Positions 1-27,134 of a DNA stretch of 43,078 nucleotides are shown here, in pieces. How positions within the stretch are numbered: the stretch's first letter is position 1; each line of letters opens with the position of its first letter. Location of the stretch: IMG/VR virus record IMGVR_UViG_3300030061_000050, positions 1 through 43,078 of that record; one strand, 5' to 3'. Under the pieces are notes generated by a model. The model worked only from the letters and a program-made list of their open reading frames with translations. It had not been told where the DNA came from and searched no databases. Source of the DNA: a virus. The translations under genes and the position numbers were made by a program.

Positions 1-28
1 CTTTGTGTAACATAATTGCTTCAATCAT
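1..28 (-). CDS. Start of a further minus-strand gene, cut by the window edge
   Basis: Only nine codons are visible, beginning MIEAIMLHK and running off the left edge. The start is chosen because an almost full anti-Shine-Dalgarno complement (GAGGAGGTGATC) lies just upstream, about nine bases before the ATG. That ribosome site lies inside the last codons of the 100-residue gene, so the two genes overlap by eight bases in different frames. No function can be read from nine residues. Confidence 0.5.
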
Positions 29-323
29 CTTCGATCACCTCCTCAGTAAATAGTTCAGAACCTGTTATGATTTGATGTTTAATATATTCAAGGACAAATA
101 GAAGAGAGGTAGACTTGATGTTCCCTGCCATCACATCTTCAGCAAGATCACCGTCCTTGAACAAGAGCATGACCGCTCCATCTACCTCTTCGTTATCTAC
201 TCTTTGCTGTAGTAGCGTAGCACATTTCTTTAGATGCTGCAACGCTTGCTCTTTACCTTCTTTGTTTAAGCTACCGTCTGGATTGACAGTAGTTGAGTTA
301 GTAAAATTAATTACATCCCCCAT
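21..323 (-). CDS. Hypothetical phage protein, 100 aa
   Basis: This is an acidic, soluble protein of 100 residues that I do not recognise. The N-terminal third is polar. The middle (about residues 20-45) is likely helical, with a KEGKEQALQHLKK stretch, and the C-terminus ends in a run of acidic residues. No membrane segment or catalytic motif is visible. The start ATG overlaps the last 13 bases of the upstream glycosyltransferase/methyltransferase gene, which suggests translational coupling. Its own 3' end carries a very strong ribosome site for the next gene. It is the most promoter-distal complete gene of the late operon in this window. Confidence 0.75.
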   Translation of the reverse strand: MGDVINFTNSTTVNPDGSLNKEGKEQALQHLKKCATLLQQRVDNEEVDGAVMLLFKDGDLAEDVMAGNIKSTSLLFVLEYIKHQIITGSELFTEEVIEDD

Positions 324-2572
324 ACTGAATACCCCTTCATTGGTTTTGGTCCTTCTATTTCCCAGAGCTTGGCTCCCATTCCTGTTCCTTTGAACTGAAT
401 ATTAATGTCCATATCGTGGGCAGTCTTGAATAACTTTTCTAGATCCTGTCCTCCAGCTAGTAGTTCTCCAGTGGTCCAGTAGCTCTGATCTCCCACAGAT
501 ACATTGATAAACTTAGGTCTGTTCTCCTCGTCCTTGGCTTGCTGCTCTACTTCTGGCGGTGGTTCCTTGAGGCTCATGTCAAACCCATAGAGGTGAAACT
601 CTCTGAAGCCTAGCGTATGTCCAATGCCTATGGTTCTAAGACCAGCGTTGGTACCCCCCGTGATCATCAGAGCATCTTTTCCTGAACCCTCTATACCACT
701 CTTCACTGCCTCTGAGTAAGCGTGCCACCCTACAATGTGTGCATCTCTTTCCTTGAGCAGGTCTACAACAGATGGATCAGTCATAGACGCTACCCAGAAG
801 TGAGTACGTGGGCTGATGCTGTCAAACAGGGTGCTCCTGACCACACCATGAGTGGACACACCCTCCACTGGTCTAGGGTCCAGTAGTGTACACGCCCAAG
901 GGATAAGGTTCTTTTCCATAAGCATTGGCAGTGCGTGTTTAACACAGACAATCCGTACACTTCTGTTACCCTCTTCTAGCATCTCCTTGTCTTCTTTGAT
1001 CTGGTCAACGTCAAGTGATGGGCCAGCAGAAACCACAAAGATAATTTCGTTATTGACCTTGCACTTTGTGTCTATCCAGTTATCAATCTTAGGCATGTTA
1101 GCCTTGATATTATTCTGAATATCCTCCGAGGGTACGCAGTCTTGAGGACGTACAACGATAGGAACTCTGGCTTTGTACTTGGGAAGAGAGGGGTCTGTTA
1201 TCAGGGCCAGGTGTGTGATACCTCCTCCCAGCACCGGGTCATTAGAAGGAATAAGATACTTGTTAACATCTTCTCTACTGTTAACCTTCTCTTCCCATAA
1301 CTTATTGACACCTTGATGTTCTTCTGCTGGTTCCTTCTCGTCTGCGTCCTTGGTAAAGTAATCATCCAGCGCAACGATCTTGTTGTGTTTAAGTTGAGCG
1401 TAGTCATGGGAAACTGTTTTGTAAGAGTGTCCCCCGTCAATGAACACAAAGTCAGCGGTGGGTTTACCCTTCAAAGTCTTGGTTGTGTTCCCTTCGATAA
1501 GCTCAAACTCAAAAGTCTTACCACTCTTGGCCTTCTCCAAGGCATACTCTGTAAGTCTTTCTGTCACAGCCTCCACTGTATTGGTGGCCTTGGAATTAAA
1601 TTCTTTCTTGTTAAGTTCTGGAGTGGTGGTGCCAAACAGATCGTACCCTGTATAGGTTACTTTATCAGCATGAGCAAACGCTGCCTCTGCCATCTGAATA
1701 GCTCTACCCCCGTTGTATGTCCCGGTCTCTATAAAGCTAGCACACTTATAGAAGCTGATCATCTCAGAGATTTGCTTGTACCTTTGTGCCGCTTCTAGAC
1801 TTACATCTCCAGAGACACCGTGCTTCTGTGCTCCCTTGAAGTGTTGCATCTTCTGAGCCAGGACAGATGTTGCAAAGGCATTGAGATCAGTAACATCAGG
1901 CGTAAGGTTCAGAGCTTTCAACCCATGGTACTGGTGCAGCTTGAGCAAGCGTTCAAAGATAAACCCATCGTGCCACTCTCTAAACGCAGTGACCTCACAG
2001 TTATCATAAGTCTCGCGCAGATCCGCTAGGAAATCTTTGGCAGGTCTGCCCTTGAGGTTGAACGCAACAAAAGAAGTCTCACTATAGTCAGCGGCAGTAC
2101 GTCCCAGATGTATAATGTCATACTGCTCATCACAGATACTGTCAAGAAACTCACTGGTAACTTCAGAGTGTGTGGTGGTATCTGCATCTAGCCAGATGAG
2201 CCAGTCTTTCTCTTGTATGATATGTGGATCAGAAGCTGTCTCTGTCAGAGCATAGACTTTGTGACACCACTTGATAGCGTCCAGTCTCCAGTTGTATTTA
2301 ATCTTCCCACCTTCGGTACCATTGTGTGTCTCCATCTTCTCCCGGTAATCTATCATGTCCTGCACATTGTTTAGATTACAGTAGTTAACTTTCTGTGTAG
2401 GTATCTCTAGTTCATTGAACCTTAGATAGAATGGTGTGTCTCCAAAGTCATGGAACCATGCATGTAGTTTAAGGTTGTCTTCCCATTTCTCTACATAAGA
2501 GGTGAGCATGTTCCTACCGTATAGGTCCAGCCCATCAGGATTAAAAGATGTTACAATGTCGTACTTACTCAT
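311..2572 (-). CDS. Three-domain glycosyltransferase / SAM methyltransferase / DUF115 (MptE- or Maf-like) fusion
   Basis: Three modules can be read in this 753-residue protein. Residues 1-235 look like a glycosyltransferase, with a DAD motif at 129-131 inside a WLIWLDADTTTH segment that would bind a metal-nucleotide sugar. Residues about 270-410 look like a class I SAM-dependent methyltransferase: motif I is ETGTYNGG at 282-289 and FIDGGHSY is at 377-384. Residues about 505-750 match the DUF115 style (6-hydroxymethylpterin pyrophosphokinase MptE, also the core of Maf flagellin glycosylation proteins), with SAGPSLD at 515-521 and GGTNAGLRTIG near 639-649. No signal peptide is visible. The gene ends one base before the upstream glycosyltransferase starts, so the pair are likely co-translated. 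I infer that it builds or decorates a glycan on the virion or host surface; substrates are unknown. Confidence 0.8.
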   Translation of the reverse strand: MSKYDIVTSFNPDGLDLYGRNMLTSYVEKWEDNLKLHAWFHDFGDTPFYLRFNELEIPTQKVNYCNLNNVQDMIDYREKMETHNGTEGGKIKYNWRLDAIKWCHKVYALTETASDPHIIQEKDWLIWLDADTTTHSEVTSEFLDSICDEQYDIIHLGRTAADYSETSFVAFNLKGRPAKDFLADLRETYDNCEVTAFREWHDGFIFERLLKLHQYHGLKALNLTPDVTDLNAFATSVLAQKMQHFKGAQKHGVSGDVSLEAAQRYKQISEMISFYKCASFIETGTYNGGRAIQMAEAAFAHADKVTYTGYDLFGTTTPELNKKEFNSKATNTVEAVTERLTEYALEKAKSGKTFEFELIEGNTTKTLKGKPTADFVFIDGGHSYKTVSHDYAQLKHNKIVALDDYFTKDADEKEPAEEHQGVNKLWEEKVNSREDVNKYLIPSNDPVLGGGITHLALITDPSLPKYKARVPIVVRPQDCVPSEDIQNNIKANMPKIDNWIDTKCKVNNEIIFVVSAGPSLDVDQIKEDKEMLEEGNRSVRIVCVKHALPMLMEKNLIPWACTLLDPRPVEGVSTHGVVRSTLFDSISPRTHFWVASMTDPSVVDLLKERDAHIVGWHAYSEAVKSGIEGSGKDALMITGGTNAGLRTIGIGHTLGFREFHLYGFDMSLKEPPPEVEQQAKDEENRPKFINVSVGDQSYWTTGELLAGGQDLEKLFKTAHDMDINIQFKGTGMGAKLWEIEGPKPMKGYSVWGM

Positions 2573-2573
2573 A

Positions 2574-3356
2574 CTAAAATATCTCCACTATTTTTCTGAA
2601 ACTACTTAGACTAAACTCAAAGTGGTCAAGTTCTTCTTCCCACTCTTCAGCATATGCACTGTCTTGGTAACCGTCCAACCAAGGACCGCCAAGACTATAA
2701 TGAATAGCTTTAACATCATTAGTGCCAGAGCTAACACCGGGAATAAAATTCCAACCATGAGGTAAGCTACCAATCTGGTCGTCACTGTCGAGCCAGCAGA
2801 AGTTATGTAAGTTAGCACCTGTTTCACTGTTTACCATTACCTCATCTAATCTATCATTCGCGGGATGGTCCAAGTTGTAGAGGACAAAGGAGGACCAGAG
2901 CTTCTTGTTGTAATCTTGTTGTAACATCCCATCCATCTTGATGGCTTCTTCAGGATGGTAATTATGTTTGACGCACATAACCGCATAGTCATCATCACAG
3001 TAATCAAATACCTCGCATACATCAGAGAGAAAAAGATAATCACAATCACAGAAGAGCACCCACCCAGAGAGGTTGTTCCTCCTGGCTATCTCAGGCACTA
3101 GAAATCTACTGTGAGAAAATTCTGTGGAGAAAGGTTTACCATCTACCTCGTCCCAGTACTGACCGTCCTCGTCTATTTTCCAAGGGCGGTAGAACATACC
3201 AGCGTGGCGTAGGGTCTTGTGGTAAATGGGAGTTACCTCGACAGGGTACGTAGACCTGCGTGTCAAGGAGTGAGCACAGACTTTGAAAGGGATATGCTCA
3301 CGGGAGTCATAACCTGCAAAGACATGGTACGCTTTGTCTCTTAATCTTTCCATCAT
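2574..3356 (-). CDS. Glycosyltransferase, GT8-like
   Basis: This 260-residue protein has the layout of a GT-A fold transferase. The N-terminus reads YHVFAGYDSRE, followed by a donor-binding region with a DxD-type CDCDYLFLSD motif (DCD at 104-106). Near the C-terminus, IHYSLGGPW (His219) resembles the third metal ligand seen in GT8-like enzymes. No signal sequence or membrane segment is seen. Two adjacent ATG codons open the frame and no good Shine-Dalgarno sequence is visible, so the exact start is uncertain by one codon. It lies directly upstream of the fused transferase/methyltransferase gene, and the two probably act on the same glycan. The donor and acceptor cannot be told from sequence. 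Confidence 0.75.
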   Translation of the reverse strand: MMERLRDKAYHVFAGYDSREHIPFKVCAHSLTRRSTYPVEVTPIYHKTLRHAGMFYRPWKIDEDGQYWDEVDGKPFSTEFSHSRFLVPEIARRNNLSGWVLFCDCDYLFLSDVCEVFDYCDDDYAVMCVKHNYHPEEAIKMDGMLQQDYNKKLWSSFVLYNLDHPANDRLDEVMVNSETGANLHNFCWLDSDDQIGSLPHGWNFIPGVSSGTNDVKAIHYSLGGPWLDGYQDSAYAEEWEEELDHFEFSLSSFRKIVEIF

Positions 3357-3398: not shown

Positions 3399-6300
3399 TT
3401 ATTTAAGTAAGTCTGCGAAAATCTCTTCACCGTATCTTTCTATCAAAGCTTTTCTTTGAGCAGCGTTAGCCATTAAGAAACGCTGTGCTAGTTCGGTGCG
3501 TCTGCCTATCTTTTTACCCAGAGGAGTTGTTCCTCCTGCTTGGTATACTGCATTCTTTAACCAGCTTCTTCTTGTTTGAGCAGAGGTGTTCAACAGGTAA
3601 CTATCATCCTTAGGATAAAGTTGCCGCATGTCCTCGTTGTATAGCTCCATTTCTTTTATGTAATCTTCTGCCTCTTTCAATTTCTTTTTGTACTTGCGTA
3701 GTAAAATAGGAGCAGGTCTACCGCTTTGAACAGTTTTATCATAAGCACGTTGAGCAACGATAGCATCTGTGTATTTACTTTTAATTAAGTTGCCATAGTT
3801 AATCTGCAGTTCACTGGTGCGCCTCTTTAAACGTCTTACATTATAAGCATACAACTGTGCCTGTGCTATATTCTCTGGTTGAAAACCTAGGATCTGAGGA
3901 ACAACTTCTCTTGCACCTACCTCTTCACCTAGTTCAATTCTATTTTGTTTAGAAGTTTTAGCCTGACCTGTCGCTCCCATCTTAACAGCTTTTGTCAAGT
4001 TATACGCTGCAGTAGGAGCCATGTTCCCGATAACTCCCAGCATGTCATCTTTGTGATAAGCTTCAAGGGCGTTAGCAATACTGCCAAAGATCATAGAACC
4101 AGCAGGGCCAGTTGTTTTTGTAAAGTCTCCACTAAAGAAACCGGGGTTTATAATCTGACCAGCACCTGTTCTACTTGTTAAAGAACTGTTGGTAATCTGA
4201 GGCAGCACGCCTCTGGTAAAGTAGCTTGGGTTTTCAAGACCTAATTCTCTAAGAGTTACATCTAGTTTAGCTTTAATCATGGGGTCAATCTTTGTCATGC
4301 TCTTGTAGATATACTCGTATAGATCCACTCCATTCTCTGCCAAGGGGAGAGACCAGAACCCACCAATCAACATCATATACAAGCCCATGTAAGCCAGAGC
4401 AGTGGCACGTTCTCCGGGGTTCTTTACCACACCACCTTCTCTAAATACCAGATCAGATATAAGCTGAAGATATCTAGTTGGAAACTGCATAAACTGTGTA
4501 AGCAAACCAAAGACAGGACCGCGCATAAACTTTGGTCTATTGTCAGCACCCATAAGAAACTGAGTTTTGTCTACAGTAAACGCAGCAAAGTATCTGGCAT
4601 CACTTGCCTGTATCCCTGCATTTTGTTGAGACAATCTAAAGTTTTGGTAGTCTGCATTATTGACCAGTTTATTTTCTATCTTATTACCTGCTGCTCTGCC
4701 TCTCCCTGCCTCATAGTTATAAACTCTATGCGCTGCTATGTAAGTTGTAAGTCGGTTAACCAACTCTACATATGTAAAGATAGCTGACGAGATACCTTCC
4801 GCTCTGTTAATAAAAGATTTAAAGTTATTGTACTGAAACTCACGTACACCACCGTAGTTAGCAATGCCAGCTTGTTCAGCAGTAACCTGCGCCATAAGTC
4901 TACCACTTAGTAAGTCAACCTTTATATCTTCCCACAGCTGTACCTGTGCGGGGCTATCTCCCAGAGGATTTTTAAGATTAATTAACTCTGCAACAGTACC
5001 TGTCCCTGTTCTTTTTAAACCTCTTACAAGCCCTGCTATTTTACCTGCATCGTTCATGGCCCTTAGTATTTCTCGTTGTGCTCTGCCAGAAGCAGTAAAT
5101 CTAGTTAACCAAGGAACACTAGCCATTGGTATCTGCGTCAAGTTAACCACAGCAGAAGACGGATTTAATCCTAGAAAATAATGAAAAGCTATTCTTCTAA
5201 GATGAAGAACATCTTGATGACCACCTACAAGGTAATCATTTAAATCAGTTGCGTACCTTACTAAGTTATTAAGGTTGTTATCTCTAAGTAATTGAATACC
5301 ATCTCTACGTTCTTTTTTTGTTTTCTGATCACCGTAGTAAGAAGCCACTCTACCAAAGTACATATTCAACGTGTCATTCATTTTCTCAATGGCAGTTTCT
5401 GGTGTAACCCATCCCGGTATATTTTTTCTTGCTTGTTGTTTCGACGGGTCTACACTAGGCTTAATACCTACAAGCTTTTCCCGTGCAGCTGTTATCATTT
5501 TACTCAGGGCAGCGTTCTCTTCAACTGTTAAAGCTGTGCTTCTAAGCTCAGTCAATGTCTGAAGAATATTATTTACTGTGTCAGGATTAGCATTGGTTAT
5601 CTCTTCTACTCCGCGACCTTCTAAGTTCTGTAATTTAACAGTGGCGTTCTCTCCGTACTCTGCCTTTAACTGCGCTCTTAGTTCTTTATACTTAACACTG
5701 TCTTCAATATTATTAAAGTCAGGGCTAAGAGAAAGTAAGTTTCTTTTAAAGTAGGAAGGCTTGTAAGTACCAAACCAAGCAGTAGTTTCACCATCACCTT
5801 CTATTGTGGTAACTCTGACACCAACATTACCAAAGCGCATATGAGGAAGATAGTTTAAGTTCTGATTAAACACAGCCACGTTGTTGCTATAGTTAGTCAA
5901 GAAGTTTACTATCTCATCTTTAGTTTTCTTCCCCTCTAAAAATTCTGAGAAGAAACTTTCAGGGTCATCTTTAATAATTACATTTGAATCATTGACGATT
6001 TGTACAGCTGTGTCTGCGTCTGCTTCTTTTAGTCGATTAGCCAGATCTAAAACTTGAGCAGGAGTTGCAGTCTCTGCTACAAAAAAGTCAGGATTAAAAG
6101 CTGTGATGATATCTGCCTTGGCGGTATTAAAAGACTGACGAATAGCAACAAGAGTATTCATTTCTTCTTGCGTTAGTTCAATGATACCTGTTCCCGGTTG
6201 AGTCAAGACTGTTCTTACATTATCACCACCGGGGTTTCTCAGAATGTATCGTTCTTTCTGTGCGTCATATTCTACTTTAGCTGGATCAAGAACACCGTCT

Positions 6301-8924
6301 GTTGTTAAGGCATTCCCCGGTGCGTTTGTTCCTTGACTTATCTGATCTAGTAATTCTAAAGCCATCATCACACTAGTTCGTGATTGGCTTACCTCAAGTT
6401 TGTTTAGCGTATCCATGAGAGGTATAAAGTAAGTTGTCATCCTATCATTGATGAGACCTTTACGAGTGCTGACGGCATTCCAGTAAGGTGCAAAGAGAGG
6501 ATATCTATGAGAAGCTACATCAGGGAAGACCCACCACTCTGCAAACTTCTTCATATCCGGTAGGTTTTTCGGAGCAGTGGTTGGCATCTGAGGAGATTTA
6601 GTTCCTGCTTCTATCTCAGCTAGTGCCTTCTTGTCTGAAGTGGGTGTGCCGTTGGCGTTTGTACTTGGCACAGCAAGCTCTCTGTTGGTTCTATCCACAG
6701 CCTTTTCAGTTGCGTTAGGATCAACAGGTGTGTTGATAGCTTCAAGGTTACCCTCACTGATAGCCATATCATTCTTATCTGATTCAGCTACTAAATATTT
6801 TATACGTTCTTTAGCTGCTTGTGCAGCTGCACCTAAGTCAAAAGAATAAGGCTCTGCTCTAGCCTTGTTATAAAGATCATTAAATAAACTATCAGATGCT
6901 TGGAGATCTATAGTCTCGTTGTTCTCAACAAACTGCTGTTCTTCTGGTGTAATAGGAGCAGTTACAAATGCGTGGTTTGGTTTCTGTTCAACAGGTACAT
7001 CTCTGGTAGTATAGCTAGATGGATCTGTAACTGTTCTGGTTTGTCTAGGAACTGTAGGGGATGCACCTTCAGCCTCGATAGTGTTCTGACGTAGGACAGC
7101 ACGTTCTTCTTCTGTGGCAAAATCAGCTATAGGTGTAGTAGAATCTGGGCGTATACCTGTTTGTGCCTCAACTGCTGCACCAAGACTAGGAGTTATTTCT
7201 GAGGCTGAACTATACTGACCAAATTCTGGATCAGTAACTTTTGCTGGTAAAGGTTGATTAGTTCCTAAAAGGTATTGAACTGTAACTTTTTGAGATCTAG
7301 AAATACCGGGATACTTAGCTTCGACTTGTGTTTCAAACGCAGTTAAAGATTCTTGAAAAGGTGCATTACTCTCTGCTCTATCTACAGTACCTTCATCTAT
7401 AAGCGTATTAAATCTATCCAGTACAACATCAAAAGATTGTCGGATGGCAGCGTCTTGATCACTCTCTTCTCTGATTATAGCTTGTGATTTAAGTTCTTCA
7501 GCGGCTACGGTTAACTCTTCAGCGGTGTACGCAGGTTGACCATCCACAGCTTGTATGGATTCACCTGTCGCTGTAACTATAAAGTCAGGGTTACTGGCAG
7601 GTTCTGCTGAACCAACGATATCATCAGTGAGAGTTTCTTCACCTGCCTCATTTGCTCTGGCTTCTTCTGCTTTTAACTCTTCTCTTCTTGCCATCTCTGT
7701 CCTGATCTGAGCAGCAGAAGCAGAGGTAAAAGTATCACTGACACCTTGTTCATTTAATTCTTTTATAATTTTATTCTGTTGGTTACCTGACATAGAACCA
7801 AATTCATTTATCTGTTCGGCAGTGTAACCTCTATCTTCTAGTGCGCGTCTAAGCTTTCGAGCACGGGTTGCTCTTGCACCTAGGGCTACCTCTGGCAGAG
7901 CAGTGGGCATTTCAAACGCCATCTCTAGTATTATGTCTCCGGGTTTATACTTACCTGTCAGAGCTTGTGCCGTTGCTTCACCACCACCTCCACCAACAGC
8001 TTGAGCAGTGGCTTCTGCTGTACCTGCGCCCACTCTTCTAAGCATAGACGCCTCTGTCGCTGCCTTGCTCAGGGGTGCACCCTTGACTAAGCTTGACAGC
8101 TTACCCGCAAAGCCTACTGTAAGAGCGTCAAAGATACCTATGGCTACACCTCTCTTGACAGCTTCATCTCTGACTTCAGCCATAGTTTCTGGATTATTAA
8201 GAGCAGCAGCAACTTGTTCATCGTTACTAAGATCAACTCCACTTTCTGAGAAAGCTTGCAAGATTGAAGAACCGTACTCTGTAGAGCCAGAACCCAGACC
8301 ACCTACAAATGCAGCGGCAAGTATTCCCGGTAGACCTGTACCACCTGTGGCAATGGCAGTTACAGCGGTGGCTGTAAGAGCAGGAGCAACTGTTCCTAAA
8401 GATTCTCCAAGGAGTGGGAGGAAAGCTGTGGGGTTGTCTGCTAGAATTGACAAGGCATCAGACACAGTTTTAGCTTTATCGTAGTTAATGAGCGTTTCTA
8501 AGTCTCGGTAGTATTCTAGCTCACCCTCTCTAACTTGTCTGCCTGTCTGAGGATCTCTGACCAGATCACCACTGGCGAAGTCTTCTCTTCTATCTTCTTC
8601 TCTGGAGTATTCACGATATCGTTCCATCTTTTCGATATCTTTTGCAGCGGTTTCTTTATCTAGAAGACCAAGTTCTGCGCCTAGTGTAGCACCGATTTGT
8701 CTAGCACTGTAGAGTCCACGCTCAAAAGGTGCTGGCACAGCGCCCATGGTAACAGGACCAAACCCCGGCTCTCTGATACCAGCCGCTATTTCAGTTTCTT
8801 CGCCATATGTCCTAGCCCACTCTAGAACTTCTTCTTGAGAGCGTTCTCCCGGTAAAGAGACATTAAACTCTACGCCGTCTTCACTGGTGTAAACAAAGTC
8901 AGTTGTTTTTTGCTGCTCTGACAT
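3399..8924 (-). CDS. Giant internal virion / DNA-ejection-type protein, 1841 aa
   Basis: This is the largest gene of the window. Residues about 160-220 form a hydrophobic Ala/Gly-rich stretch, with a second hydrophobic stretch around 250-280. A long polar Glu/Ala/Thr-rich region follows. The C-terminal third is strongly helical, with a membrane-like segment (AYMGLYMMLIGGFWSLPLAE). The segment around FGLLTQFMQFPTRYL resembles the large polyvalent protein-associated domain (LPD38-type) that I recall from giant phage proteins. No peptidase or lysozyme motif is obvious. Podovirus ejection proteins of comparable size (T7 gp16, N4 vRNAP class) leave the capsid and cross the host envelope, and I infer a similar role. 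The ATG lies four bases after the preceding gene's stop. Confidence 0.65.
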   Translation of the reverse strand: MSEQQKTTDFVYTSEDGVEFNVSLPGERSQEEVLEWARTYGEETEIAAGIREPGFGPVTMGAVPAPFERGLYSARQIGATLGAELGLLDKETAAKDIEKMERYREYSREEDRREDFASGDLVRDPQTGRQVREGELEYYRDLETLINYDKAKTVSDALSILADNPTAFLPLLGESLGTVAPALTATAVTAIATGGTGLPGILAAAFVGGLGSGSTEYGSSILQAFSESGVDLSNDEQVAAALNNPETMAEVRDEAVKRGVAIGIFDALTVGFAGKLSSLVKGAPLSKAATEASMLRRVGAGTAEATAQAVGGGGGEATAQALTGKYKPGDIILEMAFEMPTALPEVALGARATRARKLRRALEDRGYTAEQINEFGSMSGNQQNKIIKELNEQGVSDTFTSASAAQIRTEMARREELKAEEARANEAGEETLTDDIVGSAEPASNPDFIVTATGESIQAVDGQPAYTAEELTVAAEELKSQAIIREESDQDAAIRQSFDVVLDRFNTLIDEGTVDRAESNAPFQESLTAFETQVEAKYPGISRSQKVTVQYLLGTNQPLPAKVTDPEFGQYSSASEITPSLGAAVEAQTGIRPDSTTPIADFATEEERAVLRQNTIEAEGASPTVPRQTRTVTDPSSYTTRDVPVEQKPNHAFVTAPITPEEQQFVENNETIDLQASDSLFNDLYNKARAEPYSFDLGAAAQAAKERIKYLVAESDKNDMAISEGNLEAINTPVDPNATEKAVDRTNRELAVPSTNANGTPTSDKKALAEIEAGTKSPQMPTTAPKNLPDMKKFAEWWVFPDVASHRYPLFAPYWNAVSTRKGLINDRMTTYFIPLMDTLNKLEVSQSRTSVMMALELLDQISQGTNAPGNALTTDGVLDPAKVEYDAQKERYILRNPGGDNVRTVLTQPGTGIIELTQEEMNTLVAIRQSFNTAKADIITAFNPDFFVAETATPAQVLDLANRLKEADADTAVQIVNDSNVIIKDDPESFFSEFLEGKKTKDEIVNFLTNYSNNVAVFNQNLNYLPHMRFGNVGVRVTTIEGDGETTAWFGTYKPSYFKRNLLSLSPDFNNIEDSVKYKELRAQLKAEYGENATVKLQNLEGRGVEEITNANPDTVNNILQTLTELRSTALTVEENAALSKMITAAREKLVGIKPSVDPSKQQARKNIPGWVTPETAIEKMNDTLNMYFGRVASYYGDQKTKKERRDGIQLLRDNNLNNLVRYATDLNDYLVGGHQDVLHLRRIAFHYFLGLNPSSAVVNLTQIPMASVPWLTRFTASGRAQREILRAMNDAGKIAGLVRGLKRTGTGTVAELINLKNPLGDSPAQVQLWEDIKVDLLSGRLMAQVTAEQAGIANYGGVREFQYNNFKSFINRAEGISSAIFTYVELVNRLTTYIAAHRVYNYEAGRGRAAGNKIENKLVNNADYQNFRLSQQNAGIQASDARYFAAFTVDKTQFLMGADNRPKFMRGPVFGLLTQFMQFPTRYLQLISDLVFREGGVVKNPGERATALAYMGLYMMLIGGFWSLPLAENGVDLYEYIYKSMTKIDPMIKAKLDVTLRELGLENPSYFTRGVLPQITNSSLTSRTGAGQIINPGFFSGDFTKTTGPAGSMIFGSIANALEAYHKDDMLGVIGNMAPTAAYNLTKAVKMGATGQAKTSKQNRIELGEEVGAREVVPQILGFQPENIAQAQLYAYNVRRLKRRTSELQINYGNLIKSKYTDAIVAQRAYDKTVQSGRPAPILLRKYKKKLKEAEDYIKEMELYNEDMRQLYPKDDSYLLNTSAQTRRSWLKNAVYQAGGTTPLGKKIGRRTELAQRFLMANAAQRKALIERYGEEIFADLLK

Positions 8925-24460: not shown

Positions 24461-24745
24461 TTACTCAGGCTTAGTTGGCCAGACAATATTATTAACATCT
24501 ACCACTGACGGAAAATCTCTAAGGTCCTGACGATACTGAGTTTGTGCTTCAGACATTGTAGGAGAGTCCGGCATTGCCCACCAGTCTGTCTCAGATAGTT
24601 TCGCATCACGCTCTTCTCTTACTTGTTTCCAAACAGCTGCTATTTTTCCTGTAGCTTCCCACTCGGCATCTGCCGCATCCATAGCAGCACTTTCTTCAGC
24701 ACTAAGAGGTACAAGCTCCCCATTCACCATTCTATTGCGCGACAT
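24461..24745 (-). CDS. Tail-fibre assembly chaperone, 94 aa
   Basis: The protein has a charged helical N-terminal half, then LSETDWWAMPDSPTMSEAQ, YRQDLRDFPS and a terminal VWPTKPE. This ladder (R..kL..tDW......a..YR..lRd.p.......WP.kP) is the signature of phage tail assembly chaperones (PF16778-type, from memory). Its start codon overlaps the stop of the upstream 336-residue fibre by one base (TAATG), a strong sign of coupling. It is a paralogue of the 97-residue protein at 25769-26062. By position it should fold or attach the fibre encoded just upstream. Confidence 0.8.
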   Translation of the reverse strand: MSRNRMVNGELVPLSAEESAAMDAADAEWEATGKIAAVWKQVREERDAKLSETDWWAMPDSPTMSEAQTQYRQDLRDFPSVVDVNNIVWPTKPE

Positions 24746-25755
24746 TATATTGTCTCCTTCAAACCGTAGACCCGAAAATTACCGTTTTCTATATTGCCAG
24801 AAGATGACTGAAATCTTAATGAAATGGTGGGAAGACTTCCTACTCCGTCATGGAATCCAGCCAGTGTTCCGGTAGCAAGCGAAGCATCACCATGTTTAGC
24901 CACGCAATAGTTACCGTGCACGATTGTATTGTAAGTTGCGTTGGAGGGACCCATTCCCGACCAGTACGTTACAAATTGAGAACGGTTACGGGTAGAGCTA
25001 GAAATGTTATTGCCAAGTTGAATATCTGCTGTAATACCTTGGGTGTTGAGATATCCATTGTGATTACTTTGTGTGCGTTGGAGGTGTTGAAAGTAACCAC
25101 TGGTAAAATAAGCCACTGATCCCGCTGAATCATCAAATCCGATAAGACACTGTAATTCTGTGTTACTTGTTGAGTTTCTAAACCCATCAATCGTTATACA
25201 ATATATTTCAAAACCATCATCAAATGGCGTGTTTCCTATGGCACCTATATCTACCGTTGCAACAGCACTACTTACCTCTGTAACGTGTAAAAGCTCCCAA
25301 GAACCTCCTCCAGCAGCGGCGGCACTTGTCCAAGCTCCAGAGGCCGCTGTTAGCACGTTCCCGTCTGATCCCGGTGCTGGAAAACTTTGAAGGTTTGCTG
25401 GTAGACGTGCATCAGGGACAGAACCAGTACCTAGATTAGTAGCGTTTAAAGCAGTAAGGTTAACTCCACTAGCTGCTGGGAGAGTAGCTGGTAGAGCAGT
25501 TAAGTTTACACCGCTGGTAGCTGGCAGGGTAGCGGGAAACCTAGCATCTGGAACAGTTCCACTACCTAAATTAGAGGCGTTAAGATCTGTAATACTACCA
25601 CCATTAACTGCAGGAAGTGTTCCCGTGATCTGGGCAGCAGGTATAGCTGTTAAATTAGCAGCAGATCCGTTAGGAGCCAATACATCTGTTCCTATTGCTA
25701 GTCCTAGATCAGATCTAGTCTGAGTTAAATTCCCTGCGTCTAAGCGTATGGTCAT
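24745..25755 (-). CDS. Tail fibre with collagen-like 30-residue repeats and variable tip, 336 aa
   Basis: Residues about 1-130 contain repeats of the form NLGSGTVPDARFPATLP and SGVNLTALNA, shared with the 351-residue fibre upstream. A conserved joint follows (LQSFPAPGSDGNVLTAASGA, then WTSAAAAGG). After the joint the C-terminal domain (WELLHVTEVSSAVATVDIG to the end) is unlike that of the other fibre. This suggests a common shaft with a different tip. A good AAGGAG site precedes the ATG, and the stop overlaps the start of a chaperone gene. There is no enzymatic motif. A receptor-binding role is inferred from architecture and from the paired chaperone. Confidence 0.75.
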   Translation of the reverse strand: MTIRLDAGNLTQTRSDLGLAIGTDVLAPNGSAANLTAIPAAQITGTLPAVNGGSITDLNASNLGSGTVPDARFPATLPATSGVNLTALPATLPAASGVNLTALNATNLGTGSVPDARLPANLQSFPAPGSDGNVLTAASGAWTSAAAAGGGSWELLHVTEVSSAVATVDIGAIGNTPFDDGFEIYCITIDGFRNSTSNTELQCLIGFDDSAGSVAYFTSGYFQHLQRTQSNHNGYLNTQGITADIQLGNNISSSTRNRSQFVTYWSGMGPSNATYNTIVHGNYCVAKHGDASLATGTLAGFHDGVGSLPTISLRFQSSSGNIENGNFRVYGLKETI

Positions 25756-26078: not shown

Positions 26079-27134
26079 TTAATATGTCATACGAAGAACT
26101 AGGAATCTATCGGTTGCCTGTAGTTGCGTGAATTTCAGTCGGTTTACCGCTGAAGCCGTATTGTATCTCACATGGCCTTGGATGGTATCGTAGCCACCTC
26201 GACTGGAAAACGTACCAGAAGTTTCAAATCGTGCCATGATAGGAGCCGTAGCTTGTTCTGGTCGGAAAATCGTGTAATCCATTACGCCTGTATATAGCCC
26301 CCCCGAAGGTGCACTGTTAAATCCAGCCGATCCACTCGTCCATTCAGTTGACGTATAAGCATCGTCAGCACTAACTTCTAATCCCGACGTTAAAAATGAG
26401 CTACCACCATCTATAGAGTATTCTACAACCATGTTTCCACTACCGGAATATTTATTGATGATGACTCTGGTCGTCTTGCTCAAACTTCCAAGAATTAATG
26501 TGGTCCCACCTACAACATTATTCTGGACAACTTCCCAAGCACCACCAGCTGCTGCCGCAGCACTAGTCCACGCTCCCGAAGCTGCAGTTAAAATATTTCC
26601 ATCTGATCCCGGCGCTGGAAAACTTTGAAGGTTTGCTGGAAACCTTCCATTAGGGACCGTCCCACTACCTAAGTTAGTTGCGTTTAACGCTGTAAGATTA
26701 ACGCCACTGGCAGCTGGAAGTGTGGCCGGAAACCTTGCATCCGGGACGGTCCCGCTACCCAGGTTAGTTGCATTTAACGCAGTTAGGTTAACACCACTAG
26801 CAGCTGGCAACGTAGCGGGAAATCGTGCATCAGGAACAGTACCGCTGCCTAAATTGTCTGCATTTAAAGCAGTAAGGTTAACGCCACTAGCAGCTGGGAG
26901 GGTAGCAGGGAATCTTGCGTTAGGCACGGTGCCACTGGCTAGGTTAGAAGCGTTAAGATCTGTAAGACCAGAACCAGAACCACTACCGCCAGAGGCTATG
27001 AATGTAGAAGTCAGAGCAGTGCCGTTTAACTCAGTTCCCGTTGCTAAGTTTACATTACCTGTCCCATTACCACTAAGATTAAGATCACCATTATTAGAGG
27101 TGGCTGTAATAGTATCTGCTTTTAATGTACTCAT
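26079..27134 (-). CDS. Tail fibre with tandem 30-residue repeats, 351 aa
   Basis: The N-terminus (MSTLKADTITATSNNGDLNLSGNGTG) is a typical beta-helical fibre start. Residues about 60-165 carry three and a half copies of a 30-residue unit (NLGSGTVPDARFPATLPAAS plus GVNLTALNAT). The joint LQSFPAPGSDGN and WTSAAAAAGG follows, then a tip domain beginning WEVVQNNVVGGTTLILG and ending FLVLRMTY. The shaft and joint are shared with the fibre at 24745-25755, but the tip differs. An AGAGGA site precedes the ATG, and a chaperone gene follows. I infer that it is a receptor-binding fibre. Confidence 0.75.
   Translation of the reverse strand: MSTLKADTITATSNNGDLNLSGNGTGNVNLATGTELNGTALTSTFIASGGSGSGSGLTDLNASNLASGTVPNARFPATLPAASGVNLTALNADNLGSGTVPDARFPATLPAASGVNLTALNATNLGSGTVPDARFPATLPAASGVNLTALNATNLGSGTVPNGRFPANLQSFPAPGSDGNILTAASGAWTSAAAAAGGAWEVVQNNVVGGTTLILGSLSKTTRVIINKYSGSGNMVVEYSIDGGSSFLTSGLEVSADDAYTSTEWTSGSAGFNSAPSGGLYTGVMDYTIFRPEQATAPIMARFETSGTFSSRGGYDTIQGHVRYNTASAVNRLKFTQLQATDRFLVLRMTY
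26641..26955 (-). repeat. Tandem 90-bp repeats in the fibre gene, about 3.5 copies
   Basis: Units begin at 26641, 26731, 26821 and 26911, exactly 90 bases apart. Each encodes one 30-residue shaft repeat. Most differences between units fall at third codon positions, so protein repeats are conserved better than DNA. The array is therefore older than a simple slippage product. Confidence 0.9.

Follow-up and report, generated by a model that had tools for sequence, protein, structure and literature searches.

A predicted glycan-modifying module of aquatic phages that joins a GT8-family gene to a glycosyltransferase–methyltransferase–DUF115 fusion

The virus record IMGVR_UViG_3300030061_000050, analysed here over its entire 43,078 nt (the window), encodes on its minus strand a single polypeptide of 753 residues that joins a glycosyltransferase (GT) domain, an O-methyltransferase domain dependent on S-adenosylmethionine (SAM) and a DUF115/MptE-like domain. 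Immediately upstream lies a gene that we assign to the GT8 family, and the two genes form an operon-linked module conserved widely among phages. We propose that they constitute a soluble, cytosolic glycan-assembly module, similar to the A064R protein of virus PBCV-1 with a Maf-type transferase added, and most likely acting on a virion protein. Having weighed the alternatives, we regard this proposal as about evenly poised between right and wrong. The module and its parts are as follows.

2574 to 3356, minus strand: GT8-family glycosyltransferase, 260 aa (open reading frame (ORF) call, PHROG_28018, homologues, conservation)
311 to 2572, minus strand: three-domain fusion of GT-A, O-methyltransferase and DUF115 domains, 753 aa (ORF call, Pfam, AlphaFold2 model, structural alignment, conservation)
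1823 to 2572, minus strand: domain 1 of the fusion, residues 1-250, GT-A glycosyltransferase (AlphaFold2, structural alignment, conservation)
1187 to 1816, minus strand: domain 2, residues 253-462, class I SAM O-methyltransferase of the Methyltransf_24/TylF type (PF13578, TylF PF05711, structural alignment, conservation)
347 to 1150, minus strand: domain 3, residues 475-742, DUF115/MptE-like (PF01973, structural alignment, NCBIfam PseD)

Domain architecture of the fusion protein

The original prediction, made from the letters of the DNA, placed all three domains in one polypeptide, and Pfam, an AlphaFold2 model and structural alignments agree with it. The motifs that it cited lie where it put them (DAD at 129-131, ETGTYNGG at 282-289, FIDGGHSY at 377-384 and SAGPSLD at 515-521), and Pfam profiles cover the segments that it gave to the methyltransferase and to DUF115, both above their curated cut-offs: Methyltransf_24 (PF13578) at 3.7e-8 over residues 281-395, and MptE-like/DUF115 (PF01973) at 6.8e-15 over residues 488-669, the latter found in 46/46 family members. 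The AlphaFold2 model, built from 80 homologues, has a mean predicted local distance difference test score (pLDDT) of 91.2 and a predicted template modelling score (pTM) of 0.56, so that the single domains are reliable while their mutual placement is not. Comparison with PDB entries by Foldseek, followed by VIA-align, gave Z scores of 14-16 for each of the three parts. The model and the profile searches together confirm ORF 311-2572 as a real three-domain protein, and the motifs are no product of chance. The highest-ranking Foldseek rows (LARGE1) have a root-mean-square deviation (rmsd) near 20 Å and reflect separate domain matches, and we did not take them as evidence of a LARGE-like enzyme. 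Searching the PDB with the fusion as a single sequence returned a chance match only, and a profile search gave four matches, each weak by itself but in line with the structures, among them MptE (E 0.09, the best), an O-methyltransferase (0.2) and Maf (0.61).

Domain 1 is modelled with a pLDDT > 90 across most of its length and is predicted to adopt a clear GT-A fold; in Pfam it reaches Glycos_transf_2 below the cut-off (E 0.019). Its best structural matches are tied, these being the PBCV-1 A64R domain 2p72 (Z 14.5, rmsd 2.9 over 178 residues), glycogenin 6eql (Z 14.5) and BoGT6a 4cjb (Z 14.4). The catalytic-type residues D129, D131 and H244 are each kept in 139/142 non-redundant homologues.

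On the model, domain 2 is a COMT/TylF-type O-methyltransferase with an intact D-DD metal motif; TylF PF05711 itself is found in 6/46 family members. The SAM-motif residues E282 and G284 are kept in 108/108 long methyltransferase-bearing members. The candidate metal ligands are all present in the window protein, and among the same relatives D379 is kept in 77/108, D403 in 104/108 and D404 in 75/108; we take these three to be the equivalents of the MycF metal ligands. The structural matches SafC, COMT, MycF (15.4), SpnH (14.7) and CalS11 (14.7) are close in Z, and given that MycF, SpnH and CalS11 tie with COMT and SafC, the match to sugar-type enzymes does not settle the class of substrate.

Domain 3 carries the motifs SAGPSLD (515-521), VKH (544-546), LDPR (564-567), STHG (573-576), GG (639-640) and GFD (663-665), and residues G517, V544-K545-H546, L564-D565-P566-R567, G639-G640, R646 and G655 are invariant over 142 non-redundant homologues. 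A link of DUF115 to Maf and MptE had been pointed out, and the structures bear it out. MptE (8SD5) aligns to domain 3 with Z 15.5 over 196 residues, while the top match to the fusion is Maf (5MU5), at Z 19.5 over 344 residues with 13% identity and an rmsd of 13.7, the last presumably the result of a different placement of the methyltransferase and DUF115 domains. In the modelled structure, residues 253-742, that is, methyltransferase plus DUF115, align to Maf 47-502 as one unit. The motifs GPS(L/I)D and LGFRE..L.G.D are common to the fusion and Maf. Furthermore, the NCBIfam model for PseD, a flagellin modification protein, matches 30/46 family members (best 4.1e-9), with the window fusion unmatched at 0.01. 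The fusion has no transmembrane-like segment, its top 19-residue Kyte-Doolittle mean being 0.98.

The GT8-family gene

The 260-aa protein, predicted from the start to be GT8-like, matches PHROG_28018 (8e-75) and is supported as a GT8 member through its relatives' sequences: PF01501 matches 6/11 homologues (best 4.9e-9), the window protein itself being unmatched in Pfam. Its PDB profile matches are weak (WbbM 6u4b, E 0.023; GT8 5gvv, E 0.29). D104, D106, H219, G223 and P225, which lie in DCD (104-106) and HYSLGGPW (219-226), are kept in 190/190 members of the gene family, the pattern that a GT8 enzyme with its DxD and C-terminal His motif should show.

The GT8 family is wider than the fusion and is often present without it. 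We counted linkage in 100 loci found via the fusion itself, not via GT8. In 89 of these the GT8 gene lies no more than 60 bp upstream, in 10 others it is found within 2.6 kb, and 1 has none. In the window a single base (2573) separates the stop codon of ORF 2574-3356 from the ATG of ORF 311-2572, and a GGAG lies inside the 3' end of the former, about 10 nt ahead of that ATG.

Distribution and modularity

Scans of viral contigs, in which the best 80 relatives of each search were examined, found at least 401 DUF115 relatives and, for the GT-DUF type, at least 525. Uncultured aquatic phages, both marine and freshwater, commonly carry the module, with identity falling to about 40%. The search for the fusion in other phages that had been suggested turned up many loci, and in the 100 counted above the GT8 neighbour is nearly always present. 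Judged by these comparisons, the fusion is a widespread module and no one-phage curiosity. Among 50,697 phage records the full-length fusion was not found; its GT domain alone has distant homologues there, in MW202713 and in Pelagibacter phage Mosig. The BFVD entry A0A6J7X5Q0, from an uncultured Caudovirales phage, matches the fusion along its whole length at 30% identity, so that the architecture, very likely identical, has already been deposited. That record is named only 'Methyltransferase domain containing protein', which gives no function, and the literature library that we searched yielded no paper on a phage DUF115 fusion.

We considered whether the fusion might be a host housekeeping enzyme, and reject this, since the bacterial-genome matches examined sit on phage or phage-like contigs; the earlier expectation of a phage enzyme stands. 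The bacterial genome scan gave six matches, two of them carrying the fusion. Contigs L185, L186 and L188 carry phage genes, L190 is phage-like, and L187 holds unfused GT and GT8 genes. Stand-alone DUF115 genes occur at L188:3591-4358 and L190:8085-8867, on contigs of phage or phage-like character that had been assigned to metagenome-assembled genomes of archaea and deltaproteobacteria. The DUF115 part had no match in plasmids, and there was no match to a defence system in PADLOC.

The methyltransferase is the modular part of the fusion. It is absent in several lineages, and its state (intact motif, changed motif, truncated or absent) changes at least nine times on a DUF115 tree, which is a quick tree with some open forks. 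Among pairs with similar GT and DUF115 parts, the median methyltransferase identity is 0.32 across classes versus 0.59 within a class. The proteins L083:5173-6882 and L077:4588-6882 are almost identical in DUF115 and about 80% identical in the GT part (per-part identities taken from the printed alignment), with L083 lacking the methyltransferase, a pattern that points to an apparent recent exchange inside the gene. In L198, L199, L212, L153 and related freshwater GT-DUF proteins, a middle segment of 100-120 residues (VVLDCDM...YSxDxxGxHxDT...GGGFIHLAV) replaces the methyltransferase. L221, L232 and their relatives are among the members without the DGGHS metal-site motif, DGGHS being altered (e.g. 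GGGNS) and DD changed to DN; by their sequences these methyltransferases are possibly inactive or of a metal-independent form, or they may methylate differently.

Genomic context

Two further genes flank the module in the window.

21 to 323, minus strand: 100-aa protein, function not assigned, overlapping the end of the fusion gene (ORF call)
3399 to 8924, minus strand: 1841-aa large virion-type protein, directly upstream of the module (phrog_11358, a family of unknown function, 1.5e-29)

The overlap of 21-323 with the end of the fusion, together with the GGAG before the fusion ATG, makes the three genes look translationally linked. About ten related loci have the 100-aa protein in an equivalent place (10 loci make up neighbour cluster 9, with position +1 in 9 of them), and a homologue of the 1841-aa protein stands in the corresponding place in 15/46 representative loci (neighbour cluster 6). 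The GT8 and fusion genes form the 3' end of a block on the minus strand, which begins with TerS (41.7 kb), takes in TerL, portal, major capsid protein (MCP) and virion genes, and ends at position 21.

The predicted placement with virion genes holds for the window, where the module belongs to the late block, but fails as a general rule. In relatives, whose neighbouring genes we named by reading their sequences and not by profile search, there are two main settings. The first is that of the window, with the module after a large virion protein, while in the second, found in many relatives, it has ribonucleotide reductase/DUF3310 genes on one side and holin/TerS on the other. In a freshwater type the module comes directly ahead of the portal gene. 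Mosig EXVC030M encodes its GT-A-domain and GT8 homologues in two separate genes that lie side by side, next to a pair of annotated methyltransferases.

By TerL, MCP and portal, the nearest cultured relatives of the window are podovirus-like phages such as HTVC023P, HTVC027P, DSL-LC04 and CRP-901/902. HTVC027P, a cultured pelagiphage and capsid-gene relative, has an annotated glycosyltransferase within its structural gene block (gp80, L272:33266-34213 in MN698241.1). Within the window, two tail-fibre-like proteins (24745-25755 and 26079-27134, both minus strand) are rich in Ser/Thr and have repeats in common that contain NLT/NAT tripeptides (e.g. SGVNLTALNATNLGSGTVPDARFPATLPAA); they are possible candidate glycan acceptors.

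Comparison with known systems

Maf glycosylates flagellin with CMP (cytidine monophosphate)-activated acid sugars and accepts CMP-Kdo; its DUF115 domain resembles the sialyltransferase Cst-II, and its N-terminal domain is a degenerate Rossmann fold with methyltransferase motifs (PMC11339370). It modifies flagellin ahead of chaperone binding and export (PMC4065374). Maf/PseD and the phage fusion have in common a Rossmann methyltransferase-like domain followed by DUF115. The phage fusion differs in having an extra N-terminal GT-A domain and an apparently complete methyltransferase, in lacking the C-terminal helical bundle of Maf (the alignment stops at 742/753, with short helices only), and in lying not among flagellar or nonulosonate genes but beside late, ribonucleotide reductase, holin and TerS genes.

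The closest working parallel is PBCV-1 A064R, a soluble fusion in the order GT-GT-methyltransferase, which both builds and methylates the terminal part of the capsid glycan (PMC9614988), and whose GT domain is among the top structural matches of domain 1. Both are soluble viral three-enzyme fusions with an N-terminal GT-A domain, a sugar O-methyltransferase and no membrane anchors. A064R, however, comes from an algal virus, has another domain order with a rhamnosyltransferase second, and carries no DUF115; the two have a fold in common, with no demonstrated common origin of the fusion.

Cluster O mycobacteriophages such as Corndog carry, in the interval from portal to protease, several GT genes along with one for an O-methyltransferase, with a proposed role in capsid modification (PMC4351075). 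There, as in the freshwater type ahead of the portal, such genes lie among virion structural genes, but they are separate genes, with no DUF115 mentioned in that description. Archaeal MptE (8SD5), a 6-hydroxymethyl-7,8-dihydropterin pyrophosphokinase, has the fold of the DUF115 domain, but is a stand-alone pterin enzyme, while the phage domain is fused to a GT and a methyltransferase.

Proposed function and its alternatives

Because the module combines features of Maf and A064R, we propose that it assembles a methylated glycan step by step in the cytosol and makes a transfer of the Maf type. Two of its parts, the GT8 enzyme and the GT-A domain at the N-terminus of the fusion, would each add one sugar from a nucleotide-sugar, and the middle domain would O-methylate a sugar. 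The DUF115 domain, a relative of the Maf/PseD core, may carry out a further transfer, protein linking or capping, with a CMP-activated acid sugar from the host as a possible donor. As acceptor we consider a virion protein most likely; it would be modified while still in the cytoplasm, either ahead of assembly or in its course. GT8 linkage, the lack of transmembrane-like segments and the late-gene position in the window all favour this proposal, as do the folds and motifs of every domain, the alignment with Maf, the PseD matches, the A064R parallel, the freshwater type next to the portal gene and the Mosig gene arrangement. The fold of all three domains, the conservation of catalytic-type motifs, the operon linkage, the phage-wide conservation and the modularity of the methyltransferase are shown by the analysis, while the domain activities, the order of steps, the donor sugars and the acceptor are things that we infer.

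Several points weigh against the proposal. The window has no recognised genes for making sugar-nucleotides, and in many relatives the module adjoins ribonucleotide reductase, not virion genes. The DGGHS motif is missing from 31/109 methyltransferase-bearing members, making methylation not essential to the module. Furthermore, GT8 enzymes also act on lipopolysaccharide (LPS) core and need no transmembrane anchor, so that a host-surface target fits the anatomy too.

This last point leads to the main rival explanation, a serious one if somewhat unlikely, that the target is a surface glycan of the host (LPS core, O-antigen or a precursor of the capsule), which the module would modify in the infected cell and so could block adsorption of progeny or rival phages to the cell or to debris. 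The original prediction had suggested such a block to rival phages, by a sugar on the virion or on the host surface, and we regard this as a putative role. Membership of LPS-core transferases in the GT8 family speaks for it, as do the position of one GT8 homologue, that of cyanophage S-SCSM2R, close to genes with KdsA and KdsB annotations, the acceptance of CMP-Kdo by Maf-type enzymes (PMC11339370), and cyanophage glycosyltransferase clusters proposed to diversify outer polysaccharides (PMC7824862). However, the module contains no recognised membrane anchor, flippase or acyltransferase, and its position beside late, holin, TerS or portal genes is late for superinfection blocking. Both the closest methyltransferase-DUF115 relative, Maf, and the closest functional parallel, A064R, modify proteins.

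We think it quite improbable that the domains are partly decayed and the protein mainly structural or binding. The methyltransferase is lost or degenerate in several lineages, and the Maf N-terminal domain has itself been described as degenerate, yet all motif residues are intact in the window protein, and the DxD and H244 of the GT domain (139/142) and the DUF115 motif residues (nearly all of 142 sequences) are kept. A role as a pterin or nucleotide pyrophosphokinase like archaeal MptE, making a small molecule and no glycan, would account for 8SD5 being both a strong structural match and the best profile match; we find it very improbable, given that DUF115 and methyltransferase together match Maf over 344 residues, that PseD is matched in 30/46 members, and that the partners are two glycosyltransferases and an O-methyltransferase, with no folate-pathway neighbour recognised. 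Phage GTs can act on DNA, and in some relatives the module is near ribonucleotide reductase, but T4-type glycosylation of modified bases is scarcely credible here, no base hydroxymethylase or comparable base-modifying partner being recognised beside the module, its folds matching protein- and sugar-acting enzymes, and its methyltransferase being of the small-molecule O-methyltransferase type.

Returning to virion modification, a fuller scenario, which we offer tentatively and think unlikely to hold in every part, is that phages recruited a Maf-type cytosolic protein O-glycosylation enzyme and fused it to a GT and a sugar methyltransferase, and that they use it to equip their virions with a methylated glycan, which may derive from a CMP-sugar. 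In-gene recombination would swap or delete the GT/methyltransferase half while DUF115 is kept, amounting to viral surface-antigen switching.

Phage-encoded virion glycosylation is known from few systems. With the domains dissected, natural deletions at hand and Maf and A064R as parallels, the module is open to direct biochemical testing. A conserved module of this type, frequent among uncultured aquatic phages yet not found at full length in the 50,697 phage records, suggests that many phages may make methylated glycans for their own virions, and that these may have been missed so far because the module is lacking in cultured phages.

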